Positions 24,587 to 41,980 of a stretch of 64,000 nt of DNA are shown here, piece by piece. The position numbers were made by a program, and so were the translations under genes. Numbering within the stretch: the stretch's first letter is position 1; each line of letters starts with the position of its first letter. A model generated the notes under the pieces. That model saw only the letters and a list, made by a program, of their open reading frames with translations, had not been told where the DNA came from and made no database searches. Source of the stretch: Flavobacterium sp. AG291 (GTDB lineage Bacteria; Bacteroidota; Bacteroidia; Flavobacteriales; Flavobacteriaceae); the NCBI RefSeq assembly GCF_003350375.1, contig NZ_QQAR01000003.1:124001-188000 (forward strand), given 5' to 3'.

Positions 24587-25594
24587 TTAATCTGTTAAGG
24601 CTGTAAAGGGTTTATATTCAATCCATTTCCTGAGTATGTTTACACGTTCTTTTACAAAACGGTCAGTGTAGAAAGTATTGGACCAATCGTCAAAATTCTC
24701 ATGCTGAAAGCCAAAATAAAACATCCAGAATCCAAAACCAAACCATTTCATGTTGTTTATTTCAAGATCGCTTACGGGTCTGATTGTTTTGTAGGCATTA
24801 AGAAATATGCTAAAGCATCTGTCGGCATCTTCACGGGTTCTTTTTCCCAGCGAAACATCAAAAAAGTAATGGATATAAAAGGTGGTTATATCATAGATGA
24901 GATAGCCTTTTCCTGCAAAATCAAAATCAAAAAAAGTTAGTTTATCTCCAAAAAAATGAAAATTTTTAGGTAAAAAATCAAACTGGCAATAGCCTGTTGG
25001 TAATTTATCTAATGGTAGTTTTTCAAGTTCGGTTATTGCCTTATTTGCCAGTTCTGTTAACACGATATATTCTTCCGGCATATTTTTGAAAGCCGGTTTT
25101 ACTACAGCCAGAGGGTGTCTTAGTGTCGTGTCTATATTAAATTCAGCCCGGCTATAATCTAATTGTATTGTTGCTGATACATTATGAAACTTTGCCATTT
25201 CTGTCCCAAGAGTTTCCAGTTGGCTGTCGGTAAGATTATATTCCGGTTCGCCTTCGGCATAGGTAAAAAGCATACCAAAACGTTCTCCTTCTGCTGCGGT
25301 AAAAGGGGTAAGCATATTTCCTTTTGAGTCAGGGATGGTATGAGATACGCTTACATCACTTTCTTTTAGAAGGTTCAGCAGTTGAGCTTCGCCTTTTATT
25401 TCTTCTTCAGAGCGATGGCTGCTGCGATATATTTTGAAAATATACTTACTGTTTTCCGTTTCAACTACATAGGTGTCGCTTACATTATGTATGAGTAATT
25501 TGCAGGAAATAACCTTTAAATTATATTGAACGGCAATATGATCGCCAACGGCAGATGCTTTTAATACAGAGTATTGAGTAGGGAAGATATTCAT
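24587..25594 (-). CDS. Phosphotransferase enzyme family protein (APH/homoserine kinase-like)
   Basis: A 335-residue protein with the aminoglycoside-phosphotransferase fold. The catalytic loop region reads YCQFDFLPKNFHF and the metal-binding motif reads FFDFDFAGKGYLIYD. In the usual HGDxxxxN catalytic loop, the histidine position is Gln here and the glycine is Phe, while the Asp and Asn are kept. An N-terminal lobe with NSKYIFKIYR carries the ATP-binding lysine. Likely substrates are small alcohols or amino alcohols such as homoserine, choline or a sugar; resistance to antibiotics is not indicated. Single gene, convergent with SIMPL. Confidence 0.75.
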   Translation of the reverse strand: MNIFPTQYSVLKASAVGDHIAVQYNLKVISCKLLIHNVSDTYVVETENSKYIFKIYRSSHRSEEEIKGEAQLLNLLKESDVSVSHTIPDSKGNMLTPFTAAEGERFGMLFTYAEGEPEYNLTDSQLETLGTEMAKFHNVSATIQLDYSRAEFNIDTTLRHPLAVVKPAFKNMPEEYIVLTELANKAITELEKLPLDKLPTGYCQFDFLPKNFHFFGDKLTFFDFDFAGKGYLIYDITTFYIHYFFDVSLGKRTREDADRCFSIFLNAYKTIRPVSDLEINNMKWFGFGFWMFYFGFQHENFDDWSNTFYTDRFVKERVNILRKWIEYKPFTALTD

Positions 25595-25622
25595 AAATAG
25601 GCAGGTAAGATAAAAGGGGAAG

Positions 25623-25630
25623 CAAATATA
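25623..25630 (-). promoter_or_regulatory. Promoter -7 element for the phosphotransferase gene
   Basis: TATATTTG on the minus strand, exact TAnnTTTG match, 28 bases ahead of the ATG at 25594. Confidence 0.45.
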
Positions 25631-25641
25631 AAAACAAAAAA

Positions 25642-25672
25642 TTGTCTGTTATTTCATTTCAAAGTATATTTG
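25642..25672 (+). promoter_or_regulatory. Promoter for the riboswitch-CLC transcript
   Basis: TTG at 25642-25644 and TATATTTG at 25665-25672 with a 20-base spacer. The predicted transcription start, about 25679, falls directly before the riboswitch aptamer. Confidence 0.6.
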
Positions 25673-25680
25673 CAGCATAT

Positions 25681-25742
25681 ATGGCAATGATGTCTGCCTT
25701 GAACTGCTTACAAATCAATTTGAAGCTGATGACGTCTGTTAA
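25681..25742 (+). ncRNA. Fluoride riboswitch (crcB motif)
   Basis: The sequence follows the fluoride aptamer layout. P1 is GGCA (25683-25686) with TGCC (25695-25698), and the conserved AACTGC follows. A P3-type hairpin GCTT..AAGC is extended by CAAA/TTTG, then comes the signature GCTGATGACGTCT. The loop bases GATGTC (25689-25694) pair with GACGTC (25731-25736) to form the pseudoknot seen in the Thermotoga aptamer, with one wobble pair. It lies in the leader of a CLC gene with fluoride-type signatures, where fluoride would switch expression on. The expression platform is not clear; a small TGGC/GCCA hairpin follows at 25743-25754. Confidence 0.85.
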
Positions 25743-25782
25743 TGGCTAATGCCAGTATAGATGTATTTAATTAATTCAAGGT

Positions 25783-27066
25783 ATGAAAATTTACAACTTC
25801 AAAAATTACATTGCCCGTATCTCTCAAAGTTTTTATTTATTATATATCATCAAATGGCTGCTGCTGTCGATTGTTATTGGACTGTCAATTGGTTCGGCCT
25901 CTGCTTTTTTTCTTGTCTCCTTGAACTGGGTAACCAACTGGCGTGAAAGCCATGTATGGATCATTGCGCTTCTGCCATTGGGAGGGCTGGCAATTGGTTT
26001 AATGTATCATTATTGGGGTAACAGTGTAGTAAAGGGAAATAACTTGCTTTTAGAGGAATTTCATTCTCCTAAGCAGATAATTCCTTTCAGGATGGCACCG
26101 TTGGTGCTACTTGGAACATTGTTAACGCACCTTTTTGGAGGATCGGCAGGCAGAGAAGGGACGGCAGTTCAGATGGGAGGTGCTATTGCAGACCAGTTTA
26201 CCCATTTTTTTAAGCTTAGACAGGAGGATAGGGGTATAATTCTTATAATGGGTATCAGTGCAGGGTTTGCGTCCGTTTTTGGAACACCGCTCGCAGGGGC
26301 TGTTTTTGCATTAGAAGTTATGGTGCTAAACCGTATAAAGTATGATGCTTTGCTACCAAGCCTAATAGTCGCTCTTATCGCAGATTATACCTGTACAGCG
26401 TGGCATGTAAAACATACACATTATGCTATTGATGTCGTGCCTGGATTAGCTCCCGATACTCTATTATGGACGATTATAGCAGGAATTTTGTTTGGGCTTG
26501 CTGCTATGCTTTTTTCAAAGGCAGTATATTTTTTTACTAAAGTTTTCAGGCATAAAATTAGTTATCCTCCATTAAGGCCTTTAATTGGCGGTGTTTTTAT
26601 AGCATTATCAGTTTACTTGATGAGTACTACCGAATATATAGGGTTGGGTGTTCCCGTAATAGTAAGATCGTTTGGAGAGAATTTGCCGGTTTATGCTTTT
26701 ATGATAAAATTGCTCTTAACCACTTTTACTATCGGAGCCGGTTTTAAAGGGGGGGAAGTAACACCTCTGTTTTTTATTGGGGCCACTTTAGGAAATGCCT
26801 TGTTCCTGATTTTACCTTTACCAATGGCGTTTTTGGCAGGAATAGGATTTGTAGCTGTTTTTTCAGGTGCAACTAATACTCCTATCGCCTGTACAATAAT
26901 GGGTATCGAACTTTTTGGCATAGAGGCAGGTGTTTATATAGCGTTGGCCTGTTTTGTGGCTTATCTTTTTTCAGGATATACAGGAATATATAGTTCTCAG
27001 AATCGAGTAGGTGTTAAGTATTTGTTGTATGAAAAGATAAAAGGTAAAAGTTTGAAGGATTTGTGA
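25783..27066 (+). CDS. CLC-family channel/antiporter, probably CLC-F fluoride/proton antiporter
   Basis: A 427-residue CLC membrane protein with about ten hydrophobic segments. The gating glutamate is Glu125 in GGSAGREGTAVQMG. The usual GSGIP selectivity motif is replaced by VVKGNNLLLEE (from residue 82), and the later motif reads GAGFKGGEVTP. This departs from chloride-type CLCs and fits what I remember of the CLC-F clade, which expels fluoride in exchange for protons. The fluoride riboswitch 40 bases upstream is strong independent support. There is no CBS domain, as is usual for this clade. Confidence 0.88.
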   Translation: MKIYNFKNYIARISQSFYLLYIIKWLLLSIVIGLSIGSASAFFLVSLNWVTNWRESHVWIIALLPLGGLAIGLMYHYWGNSVVKGNNLLLEEFHSPKQIIPFRMAPLVLLGTLLTHLFGGSAGREGTAVQMGGAIADQFTHFFKLRQEDRGIILIMGISAGFASVFGTPLAGAVFALEVMVLNRIKYDALLPSLIVALIADYTCTAWHVKHTHYAIDVVPGLAPDTLLWTIIAGILFGLAAMLFSKAVYFFTKVFRHKISYPPLRPLIGGVFIALSVYLMSTTEYIGLGVPVIVRSFGENLPVYAFMIKLLLTTFTIGAGFKGGEVTPLFFIGATLGNALFLILPLPMAFLAGIGFVAVFSGATNTPIACTIMGIELFGIEAGVYIALACFVAYLFSGYTGIYSSQNRVGVKYLLYEKIKGKSLKDL

Positions 27067-27406
27067 GGAGTAAAGATTTATCGGGAATTGGGGGGATGAA
27101 CATGAAGAACGTTTACGATCGCTCATTTTAAAACGTCTTGATTAAATTATAGAACTCTAATCATTACTGAGAGTTTCTTGTTTTATATAATAAAGTAGCC
27201 ATTTTAGAATTACGCATGTAATGCGCTTTAAATTTTCAAAATCAGATATCCTATTTCATTTTGACATATTTGAGGTGATATATATGTAAAGTAAAATCAG
27301 TTAATTTGTCCACGTTTACCACGTTCAAATCATTCTGCAAACTGGCAGCATAATTTTTTAAAGTGCTTGAATTTCTTGGATTTTAACAAACAGATGCGAC
27401 AGAACC
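27067..27406. other. Intergenic region after the CLC gene
   Basis: 340 AT-rich bases between a plus-strand and a minus-strand gene. It contains a weak inverted repeat AACTCT / AGAGTT (27153-27175) followed by TTCTTGTTTT, a possible terminator. I see no gene, tRNA fragment or repeat shared with the rest of the window. It is the left edge of the accessory block, so it was checked for a copy of the tRNA-Tyr end; none is visible. Confidence 0.45.
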
Positions 27407-28822
27407 TTATTTAGCGATTTTACTGATCATACCATTAAATATAAAATAGTGAAATGGAAGCACTAAATACCAATACATCCTTCCTGCCAGGCCAAGTGGG
27501 CGAAATGTAGCTGTTTGGTATACAGTGTTTCCTTTAATTCTAAATTCCAGCCATGCTTCTCCCGGCAGTTTCATCTCGGCATACAGCAAAAGCCTTTTCT
27601 CTTTGGGATCTGTATAAATAACCCGCCAAAAATCCAAAGTATCGCCTGCATTTACAGATGATATATTCCTCCGCCCCCTTTTGAGGCCTACACCACCAAA
27701 CAGCTTATCAAGAAATCCCCTAAAACTCCAGAGCCAGTCGGCATAATACCATCCTGAATATCCCCCAATGGCAAAAATGCGCTCGGCTGCCTGCTCAGGA
27801 TCTTTAGTAGTTGCTGTCTTGCGGTCTGTGAATACACCGAATTCAGGTACCTGTATCAGCTTTGAGAGTTTTTTACCTGCCTGCAGATTTCCCATAGCAT
27901 CTTTCCAGCTGGATAACACCATGTTCTGTTCTATCTTATCAAAAGCAATACGAATAGCCTGACGGTACGGAATCAGTGTAATGCAAAGCTGTTCAGCTAA
28001 TTTATTGCGATTGGCTACAACGTCTACCTTCATGCTCTCCACGAGATTAGCTGCGAGAGAATAAGACGTGGAGGTGACAAAATAAAGCCAGTAGGAGGAG
28101 AGGCGTGGTGTCATGACGGGCAGGGTAAAAATATGCCTTTTGAGGCCCCTTTCCTTTGCAAACTGTAAAAGCATTTCCTTATAGGTAAGTATATCCGGCC
28201 CATAGATATCAAAATGTTTACCGAAAGTGGATTCCTTTAGCAGGACACCGGAAAGGAACTGTATGACATTACGAACTGCGATAGGCTGGCATTTTGTATG
28301 CAGCCATTTTGGTGCAATCATGACAGGAAGCTTTTCGATAAGGTCACGGATGATCTCGAAGGAGGCGCTGCCGGATCCCACAATAATACCTGCTCTTAGC
28401 GCGGTCAGGGGAATAGCTGAAGAGGCCAGTATCGTTTCCACATTTTTGCGTGAGGCGAGGTGCATTGATAATTCCTGCTCGTTCACTATGCCTGTAAGGT
28501 AAATTACCTGCTTTGTTGCTGTCTTATTTATAGCATCGACAAAATTCCTGGCAGAGCGTTCTTCCATCTCACTGAATTCTCCGCCTGAACTCATGGAATG
28601 GACCAGATAGTAGGCTGCGTCAATGTCATCAGCAAAATTAAGGCTGGATGAATCCAAAAGGTCCGCTTCCATAACGCTTAACCGTTTCTTATAGCCGTAT
28701 TTTGACGTGTCTAAACGTGAGGCATCCCTGACCAGGCATATCACTTCATGCCCATTTTCCAGAAGAGCGGGAAGAAGGCGCTGTGCTATATAACCGGTTG
28801 CACCTGTCAACAGTATTTTCAT
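27407..28822 (-). CDS. SDR-family NAD(P)-binding oxidoreductase with DUF2867 domain
   Basis: A 471-residue protein. The N-terminal extended-SDR Rossmann domain starts MKILLTGATGYIAQ (glycine motif at residues 7-12) and includes AAYYLVHSMSSGG. The C-terminal DUF2867 domain (about 320-471) contains IGGYSGWYYADWLWSFRGFLD and TLDFWRVIY. I remember the family as a frequent partner of photolyases and CarH/LitR-type MerR regulators in light-induced gene sets. The reaction is unknown. It is divergently transcribed from the MerR gene and shares a 107-base regulatory region with it. Confidence 0.85.
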   Translation of the reverse strand: MKILLTGATGYIAQRLLPALLENGHEVICLVRDASRLDTSKYGYKKRLSVMEADLLDSSSLNFADDIDAAYYLVHSMSSGGEFSEMEERSARNFVDAINKTATKQVIYLTGIVNEQELSMHLASRKNVETILASSAIPLTALRAGIIVGSGSASFEIIRDLIEKLPVMIAPKWLHTKCQPIAVRNVIQFLSGVLLKESTFGKHFDIYGPDILTYKEMLLQFAKERGLKRHIFTLPVMTPRLSSYWLYFVTSTSYSLAANLVESMKVDVVANRNKLAEQLCITLIPYRQAIRIAFDKIEQNMVLSSWKDAMGNLQAGKKLSKLIQVPEFGVFTDRKTATTKDPEQAAERIFAIGGYSGWYYADWLWSFRGFLDKLFGGVGLKRGRRNISSVNAGDTLDFWRVIYTDPKEKRLLLYAEMKLPGEAWLEFRIKGNTVYQTATFRPLGLAGRMYWYLVLPFHYFIFNGMISKIAK

Positions 28823-41899: not shown

Positions 41900-41980
41900 T
41901 GGGGAGAGCAGGATTCGAACCTGCGAAGGTTTCCCAACGGATTTACAGTCCGTCCTCGTTGGCCGCTTGAGTATCTCCCC
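41900..41980 (-). tRNA. tRNA-Tyr (anticodon GTA)
   Basis: Reading the minus strand from 41980: acceptor GGGGAGA pairs with TCTCCCC at the 3' end. The anticodon loop is ACTGTAAAT within the stem GGACT...ATCC, giving GTA for tyrosine. A class II long variable arm follows, and the T-loop is GTTCGAATC. The discriminator is A and CCA is not encoded. The length of 81 bases is usual for tRNA-Tyr. A decayed integrase adjoins its 3' end. Confidence 0.95.

Follow-up and report, generated by a model that had tools for sequence, protein, structure and literature searches.

The CLC gene at positions 25783-27066 of the window (the whole stretch of 64,000 nucleotides analyzed here, from contig NZ_QQAR01000003.1 of Flavobacterium sp. 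AG291) raises two questions: which anion its product moves, and how the RNA ahead of it sets its expression. An earlier note on this DNA had described a complete fluoride-resistance unit consisting of a promoter, a fluoride riboswitch, and a CLC-F-like antiporter. The aptamer and the CLC-F gene were borne out by our analysis; the description was not complete, as it missed a switching segment at 25732-25783. With this segment included, we consider it likely that the locus is a one-gene fluoride-resistance unit in which fluoride would turn translation on through the folding of two helices, P4 and P5, at the start codon. The features on which this reading is built are as follows.

25642-25672, forward strand: predicted Bacteroidota-type promoter, with a partial -33 element (TTG, 25642-25644) and a -7 element (TATATTTG, 25665-25672)
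25674-25745, forward strand: fluoride riboswitch aptamer (RF01734), covariance-model match of 46.5 bits
25683-25686 with 25695-25698, forward strand: aptamer P1, GGCA paired with UGCC
25689-25694 with 25731-25736, forward strand: aptamer pseudoknot, GAUGUC paired with GACGUC
25706-25709 with 25723-25726, and 25711-25714 with 25719-25722, forward strand: aptamer P3, GCUU paired with AAGC and CAAA paired with UUUG
25732-25764, forward strand: predicted apo hairpin P4, ACGUCUGU (25732-25739, the pseudoknot 3' strand) paired with AUAGAUGU (25757-25764)
25743-25746 with 25751-25754, forward strand: inner stem of P4, UGGC paired with GCCA
25695-25783, forward strand: predicted apo helix P5, UGCCUUGAA (25695-25703) paired with UUCAAGGUA (25775-25783)
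25783-27066, forward strand: gene for a CLC-F-type fluoride/proton antiporter of 427 amino acids, assigned by PF00654, the match to 6d0j, motifs, and a tree
Within that protein: Asn86 (GNN, residues 85-87), external gate Glu125 (GREGT, 123-127), and inner Glu325 and Thr327 (GGEVTP, 323-328)

The roughly 100 bases ahead of the CLC gene had been proposed to form a fluoride aptamer, and the covariance model agreed. In a cmscan of the 64-kb window, RF01734 matched 25674-25745 on the forward strand well above its gathering cut-off of 34 bits (E = 9.6e-10). The match was full length (1-64 of 64 positions), all consensus pairs were intact in the model alignment, and both pseudoknot strands lay exactly where the earlier note had placed them. 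This is the single RF01734 match in the genome (3,829,887 bases in 30 contigs), and it ends 37 bases before the CLC-F start codon. The sole other gathering-level RNA family match within the window was a tRNA gene at 41900-41980 on the reverse strand. From its model match, the window aptamer is predicted to bind fluoride.

The protein points to the same anion. Pfam recognized a single family on it, PF00654 (Voltage_CLC; 3.6e-76), and NCBIfam returned chloride-channel names, all far below their cut-offs, so that no name was assigned. An automated pipeline would therefore probably label it a chloride channel, and, as had been anticipated, a protein-only annotation would miss the predicted inducibility by fluoride. 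Among solved structures, the best relatives were the CLC-F entries 6d0j, 6d0k, and 6d0n (5.3e-63 to 5e-62), with the first chloride-type ClcA entries following at about 2e-12. In a tree of 146 rows, made by a quick method and with chloride-type and 6d0j branches so long that their exact placement is unsure, the window protein grouped with CLC-F proteins and was separated from three chloride-type CLCs (E. coli ClcA and ClcB and the second CLC of this genome, L002) by a branch with a support of 99 (SH-aLRT). The earlier claim that two signals agree thus holds: the RNA is a fluoride aptamer, and the protein is of the CLC-F type by its 6d0j match and its place in the tree.

The motifs of the protein refine this assignment. 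Where chloride-type proteins have GSGIP, the window protein reads VKGNN, a string found in 110 of 150 CLC-F rows; its gating motif is GREGT (144 of 150), and it shares the inner motif GGEVTP (149 of 150) with 6d0j. Rows in these counts and in the tree include some copies of one gene, and L121 is the window's own gene. The note was therefore correct that the protein lacks GSGIP and has GREGT. However, GREGT is not a sign of fluoride transport by itself: at the same columns, E. coli ClcA has GREGP and ClcB has GREGA. The replacement of GSGIP by GNN, and GGEVTP with its inner glutamate, appear to be better CLC-F markers. Passages of PMC12035849 treat E118 and E318 of 6d0j as the outer and inner glutamates, and these aligned with Glu125 and Glu325 of the window protein (numbering offset by hand). 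The two proteins share both glutamates, GREGx, and GGEVTP, but differ in the anion-pathway loop, which has Asn86 in the window protein and Met79 in 6d0j. Chloride-type CLCs have PF00654 in common with the window protein but differ in their motifs, which are GSGIP and GGIFAP in ClcA and GLESP and GGNFAP in L002. The window protein is predicted to exchange fluoride for protons, with selectivity over chloride.

The genome offers few other candidates for this role. The second CLC (L002; 605 amino acids) has a CBS domain, lacks the CLC-F motifs, and had no match among solved structures (PDB) at E = 1e-20. No Fluc/CrcB gene (PF02537) was found in the genome at E ≤ 0.001, in a search that was positive in 10 of 14 control genomes. 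Because of these two results, the window CLC-F would be the genome's only fluoride exporter of the two families sought. The neighboring gene at 27407-28822 had a match in 35 of 60 relatives in a synteny look-up. An origin of the locus from a plasmid was considered and rejected, as 25400-27300 had no near match in a plasmid collection.

Relatives of the leader were gathered from three sources. Above-cut-off aptamers occurred in 15 of 299 genomes in a sample of the window's family (24 at E ≤ 0.001) and in 49 of 398 genomes in a sample of its genus (57 at E ≤ 0.001). Nine RF01734 matches in the family sample were weak (L018-L026, 22-26 bits). Named genome contigs were scanned from the protein side, keeping the best 80 of 234 CLC-F relatives, all from Bacteroidota, judged by their titles, except L107 (Propionigenium); an above-cut-off aptamer lay upstream at 20 of these 80 loci and was missing at 60, one of which (L056) has just 61 upstream bases. 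Together with the window aptamer, 16 from the family search, 20 from the named CLC-F contigs, and 49 from the genus search, a second copy of one locus among these 49, gave 86 aptamers. A CLC-F match lay behind 82 of the 86, or behind 62 of 66, window included, once the 20 found via CLC-F genes were set aside. The four with no CLC-F match behind them (L005, L027, L028, and L153, which sits at a contig end) were dropped, as were exact duplicates (L044, L049, L064, L054, and L181), leaving 77 distinct leaders; the start codon assigned by rule is doubtful in some of these (L147, L155, and L167 among them), which makes distances longer there. At L005, L027, and L028, from the family search, the aptamer precedes a gene that is not CLC-F and whose short frame looks CrcB/Fluc-like by eye.

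The promoter that had been proposed ahead of the aptamer was upheld in its -7 element and only in part beyond it. Passages of PMC6847099 give the Bacteroidetes promoter consensus as TTTG (-33) and TANNTTTG (-7). The TATATTTG at 25665-25672 agrees with the latter, whereas the TTG at 25642 agrees only partially with the former. TANNTTTG occurred in 67 of the 77 leaders, anywhere from 45 bases before the aptamer to its eighth base, where base shuffles expect 4.3. A sigma-70 scan included 25642-25670, but it listed 19 sites against 9.8 in shuffles. The transcript would begin at or just before the aptamer.

We then asked what the aptamer strands pair with in the rest of the leader. The 3' strand of the P4 hairpin, AUAGAUGU, resembles a copy of the pseudoknot 5' strand, for which it would be a decoy; its duplex with the pseudoknot 3' strand has an energy of -11.0 kcal/mol in the window (mean of shuffles -5.1; 0 of 200 as low). 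Across the 77 leaders, the complementarity of the P4 strands averaged -8.5 kcal/mol against -5.2 in dinucleotide shuffles, and -8.4 against -5.5 when leaders were swapped between species; taken singly, 37 leaders reached p ≤ 0.05 and 40 did not. In a profile of pairing energy along the aptamer, the mean minimum (-8.3) fell at the pseudoknot 3' strand, with a weaker second minimum (-6.6) at the P1 3' strand. The 3' end of P4 lay within 20 bases before the start codon, or across it, in 68 of the 77 leaders.

Covariation was assessed in 25 aligned leaders, picked for a shared hairpin architecture from 42 that precede a CLC-F with an identity of 60% or more to that of the window, with the GAAAUGG type left out. 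This choice inflates the percentage of paired cells in P4 and affects double changes less, and the shuffle counts are not probabilities because the rows are related. For P4, 84.5% of cells were paired (80.4% in shuffles), 7 of 12 pairs had changes on both sides (3.6 in shuffles), and the covariation was 0.225, a value matched by 1 of 500 shuffles (mean 0.160) and well beyond that of slid partners (at most 0.131). Further pair types in P4 were no more numerous than in shuffles, of which 233 of 500 had at least as many; its two outermost pairs were broken in 12 and 16 of the 25 leaders. The inner stem was 97.9% paired, and each of its four pairs had a both-side change in some leader, as in L164, where UGGC/GCCA becomes CGGU/ACCG. 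P1 and the pseudoknot together were paired in 97.2% of cells (at most 62.8% for slid versions), with a covariation of 0.104 that 8 of 500 shuffles equaled or exceeded. Two pseudoknot pairs had changes on both sides, a number reached by 80 of 500 shuffles, and one pseudoknot position was unpaired in 7 of the 25 leaders.

The second helix, P5, would be formed by the P1 3' strand and its joining bases (UGCCUUGAA) with a strand, UUCAAGGUA, that runs up to and includes the A of the AUG. It comprises nine base pairs with an energy of -11.3 kcal/mol, calculated for the last 22 bases of the leader and the first four of the gene (p = 0.015 against shuffles). P5 changes on both strands together in some relatives, reading UGCCUUAAA/UUUAAGGCA in L011, L014, L045, L075, and L133 and UGCCCGG/CCGGGC(A) in L033 and L069. 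Most relatives lack it, among them L149, L176, and L178, which belong to the same clade as the window. We therefore rejected P5 as a general feature: it reached p ≤ 0.05 in a subset, namely, 16 of 60 leaders with the common aptamer and 0 of 16 in the GAAAUGG group.

Both helices are present in the minimum-energy fold of the window leader (-32.3 kcal/mol; z = -4.19, a value reached by none of 200 shuffles), as computed by programs that ignore the pseudoknot, magnesium, and fluoride. P3 is common to this fold and to the aptamer, while P1 competes with P5, and the pseudoknot with P4, for a shared strand, so that the members of each pair are mutually exclusive. During elongation of the RNA, P4 enters the lowest-energy fold near position 25764 and P5 near 25784, so fluoride would have to bind before P4 and P5 are made. 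When the aptamer was removed from pairing, to imitate the expected effect of fluoride binding, bases -12 to +3 opened by a mean of 0.194 in the 77 leaders, compared to 0.042 in shuffled leaders; for the window, the opening was 0.273, a value matched by 4 of 100 shuffles (mean 0.055).

These properties suggest how the leader might work. In a transcript that begins at or just before the aptamer, and in the absence of fluoride, P4 would capture the pseudoknot 3' strand in the finished leader and P5 would capture the P1 3' strand, closing on the bases before and at the AUG so that the ribosome could not load. If fluoride were bound during transcription, P1 and the pseudoknot would be locked, P4 and P5 would not form, and the start region would remain open. 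The CLC-F antiporter would then be made and would export fluoride in exchange for protons. Passages of PMC6847099 describe initiation in Flavobacterium johnsoniae as tuned partly by structure around the start codon, in a phylum without Shine-Dalgarno sequences, and a switch that acts by folding alone would therefore fit.

The alternative that survives best keeps the same aptamer and transporter but has P4 terminate transcription, as in Bacillus cereus crcB, instead of hiding the start. P4 does use the pseudoknot strand, as does the terminator stem of transcriptional fluoride riboswitches in the sections of PMC13273304 that describe strand exchange from the pseudoknot into the terminator (323 of 1901 variants were functional in the termination assay there), and the window tail behind P4, UUUAAUUA, has five U in eight bases. 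However, P4 was not listed by a terminator scan, and just 12 of the 77 leaders have at least five U in the eight bases behind P4; two of these 12 are the window and L107 (UUUUUGUU), a control from a fusobacterium. In the GAAAUGG group, the P4 strand (UUUAAUCAGG and similar) ends 4-7 bases before the AUG in 12 of 16 leaders, which leaves no space for a U-run. Long T-run hairpins were seen by eye ahead of the aptamers in L140, L152, and L169; these bacteria therefore seem to have ordinary terminators. We consider termination in the window unlikely, although weak termination may occur there. A fusobacterial CLC-F locus (L107:1845-2000, Propionigenium maris) has a fluoride aptamer followed by an apparent classical terminator, a 14-pair stem and then UUUUUGUUUU, unlike its Bacteroidota relatives.

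Far less probable is constitutive expression of the gene, with a window aptamer that has decayed or serves as ornament only. Related genera do have missing or decayed aptamers (32.6 bits at L040, and no above-cut-off match at 60 of the best 80 CLC-F loci), but the window aptamer is a full-length match with unbroken consensus pairs, and the decoy strands fit its own sequence, including a variant of the P1 strand (UUGAA versus UUCAA). About as improbable is conservation of the switching segment as a short leader peptide (25742-25774, MANASIDVFN; MAYATVESFI in relatives) coupled to CLC-F by initiation or stop, which we rejected as the main cause: of the 25 aligned leaders, 19 have an ATG that overlaps the inner stem of P4 on its 5' side, and by eye several such frames end with TAA right before the gene, but the other 6 (L029, L063, L134, L135, L136, and L164) keep the stem without the ATG, the stem has its high pairing and four both-side changes, and, by eye, no stop closes the frame ahead of the gene in L007 and L073.

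Returning to translational control by P4 and P5, the relatives suggest a broader pattern, which we put forward tentatively and would rate slightly short of an even chance. Fluoride riboswitches of Bacteroidota may share a start-occluding platform free of Shine-Dalgarno sequences, in which P4 mimics the pseudoknot 5' strand and P5, in the window and some relatives, mimics the 5' strand of P1; a three-way junction closing on the AUG would then compete with both aptamer halves. This platform would have at least three layouts in CLC-F genes behind much the same aptamer; in the third (L151, L154, L160, L163, and L170), the P4 strand abuts the AUG. In the genus search, a second aptamer type, with a GGAAATGGTGTTCTTCC-like P1, was seen in L138, L139, L142-L147, L150, L155, L165-L168, L175, L179, and L180. 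Its switch strand (TTTAATCAGG and similar) ends 4-7 bases before the start in 13 of 17 loci, counting L168, which our sorting pattern placed in the common group. Except for L143, the loci of this type form one tree group beside L107.

The aptamer is not a constant companion of the gene. A CLC-F-like match at E < 1e-100 was present in 39 of 61 genomes of the genus (counted by eye). In the tree, the window was placed together with members of its genus that carry the aptamer (11 rows, including one copy of the window gene; support of 97), and aptamer-less Flavobacterium, Polaribacter, and Lutibacter rows fell in other groups, alongside 19 aptamer-bearing rows. Same-genus rows lay among the named Flavobacterium rows, L113 next to L089 being one case. 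This tree, which is rooted by midpoint only, is most simply read as repeated loss of the aptamer. We rejected constant fluoride in the sea as the cause of loss: Leeuwenhoekiella and Zunongwangia, presumably marine from the sound of their names, keep the aptamer, and many Flavobacterium lack it.

Several loci illustrate the surroundings of CLC-F genes that lack an above-cut-off aptamer. In Algibacter lectus (L040:1898-1962), a decaying aptamer ahead of CLC-F scores just under the cut-off. Remnants seen by eye ahead of CLC-F at L034, L058, L050, and L053, where RF01734 had no match up to E = 0.5, are perhaps decayed aptamers, and several loci keep TAGAATCATTTATTTAAGG-like bases right before the start. 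In Flavobacterium and near relatives (L081, L083, L086, L091-L095, and L098-L100), aptamer-less CLC-F lies close behind the end of another gene, which we take to be RidA-like from its last residues by eye; because of this closeness, these CLC-F genes may be read from the preceding gene's promoter. Aptamer-less CLC-F genes of Polaribacter (L052, L057, L062, L072, L097, and L105) have a Flavo-1 RNA (RF01705) roughly 0.1-1.1 kb upstream, on the other strand. Two CLC-F matches (G304:C11:412089-413339 and G339:C1:2880525-2881778) have one in-frame TAG in the aligned stretch; they start at query residue 4, where most of the genus start at about 18, and the TAG may fall in upstream sequence only.

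The pairing of a fluoride aptamer with CLC-F is textbook and ordinary in kind; passages of PMC7266159, citing Baker 2012 and Stockbridge 2012, cover both the pairing with eriC/CLC-F and the misannotation of such genes as chloride transporters. The expression platform is less ordinary. Like the known RF01734 (crcB) riboswitch, the window has P1, P3, and the pseudoknot in a full-length match before a fluoride exporter gene, and an apo helix, P4, for which the pseudoknot 3' strand is reused. It differs in having no clear intrinsic terminator and a predicted occlusion of the start without a Shine-Dalgarno sequence. The window and some relatives differ further in a second decoy helix, P5, that captures the P1 strand and extends to the AUG. 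In sections of PMC13273304, Pseudomonas syringae and Burkholderia pseudomallei supply fluoride riboswitches that serve as translational controls; they resemble our reading of the window in having a fluoride aptamer without intrinsic termination and in being taken as translational, but they belong to a different phylum. The main text of PMC13273304 has no words beginning with bacteroid or flavobact, and a search by title and start of abstract, with most subscription journals outside it, found no paper on the expression platform of Bacteroidota fluoride riboswitches.

Collectively, these data replace a likely label of chloride channel with that of a predicted fluoride exporter, which would be fluoride inducible. 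In addition, the switching segment provides a testable model for how a riboswitch may control translation in bacteria that lack Shine-Dalgarno sequences.
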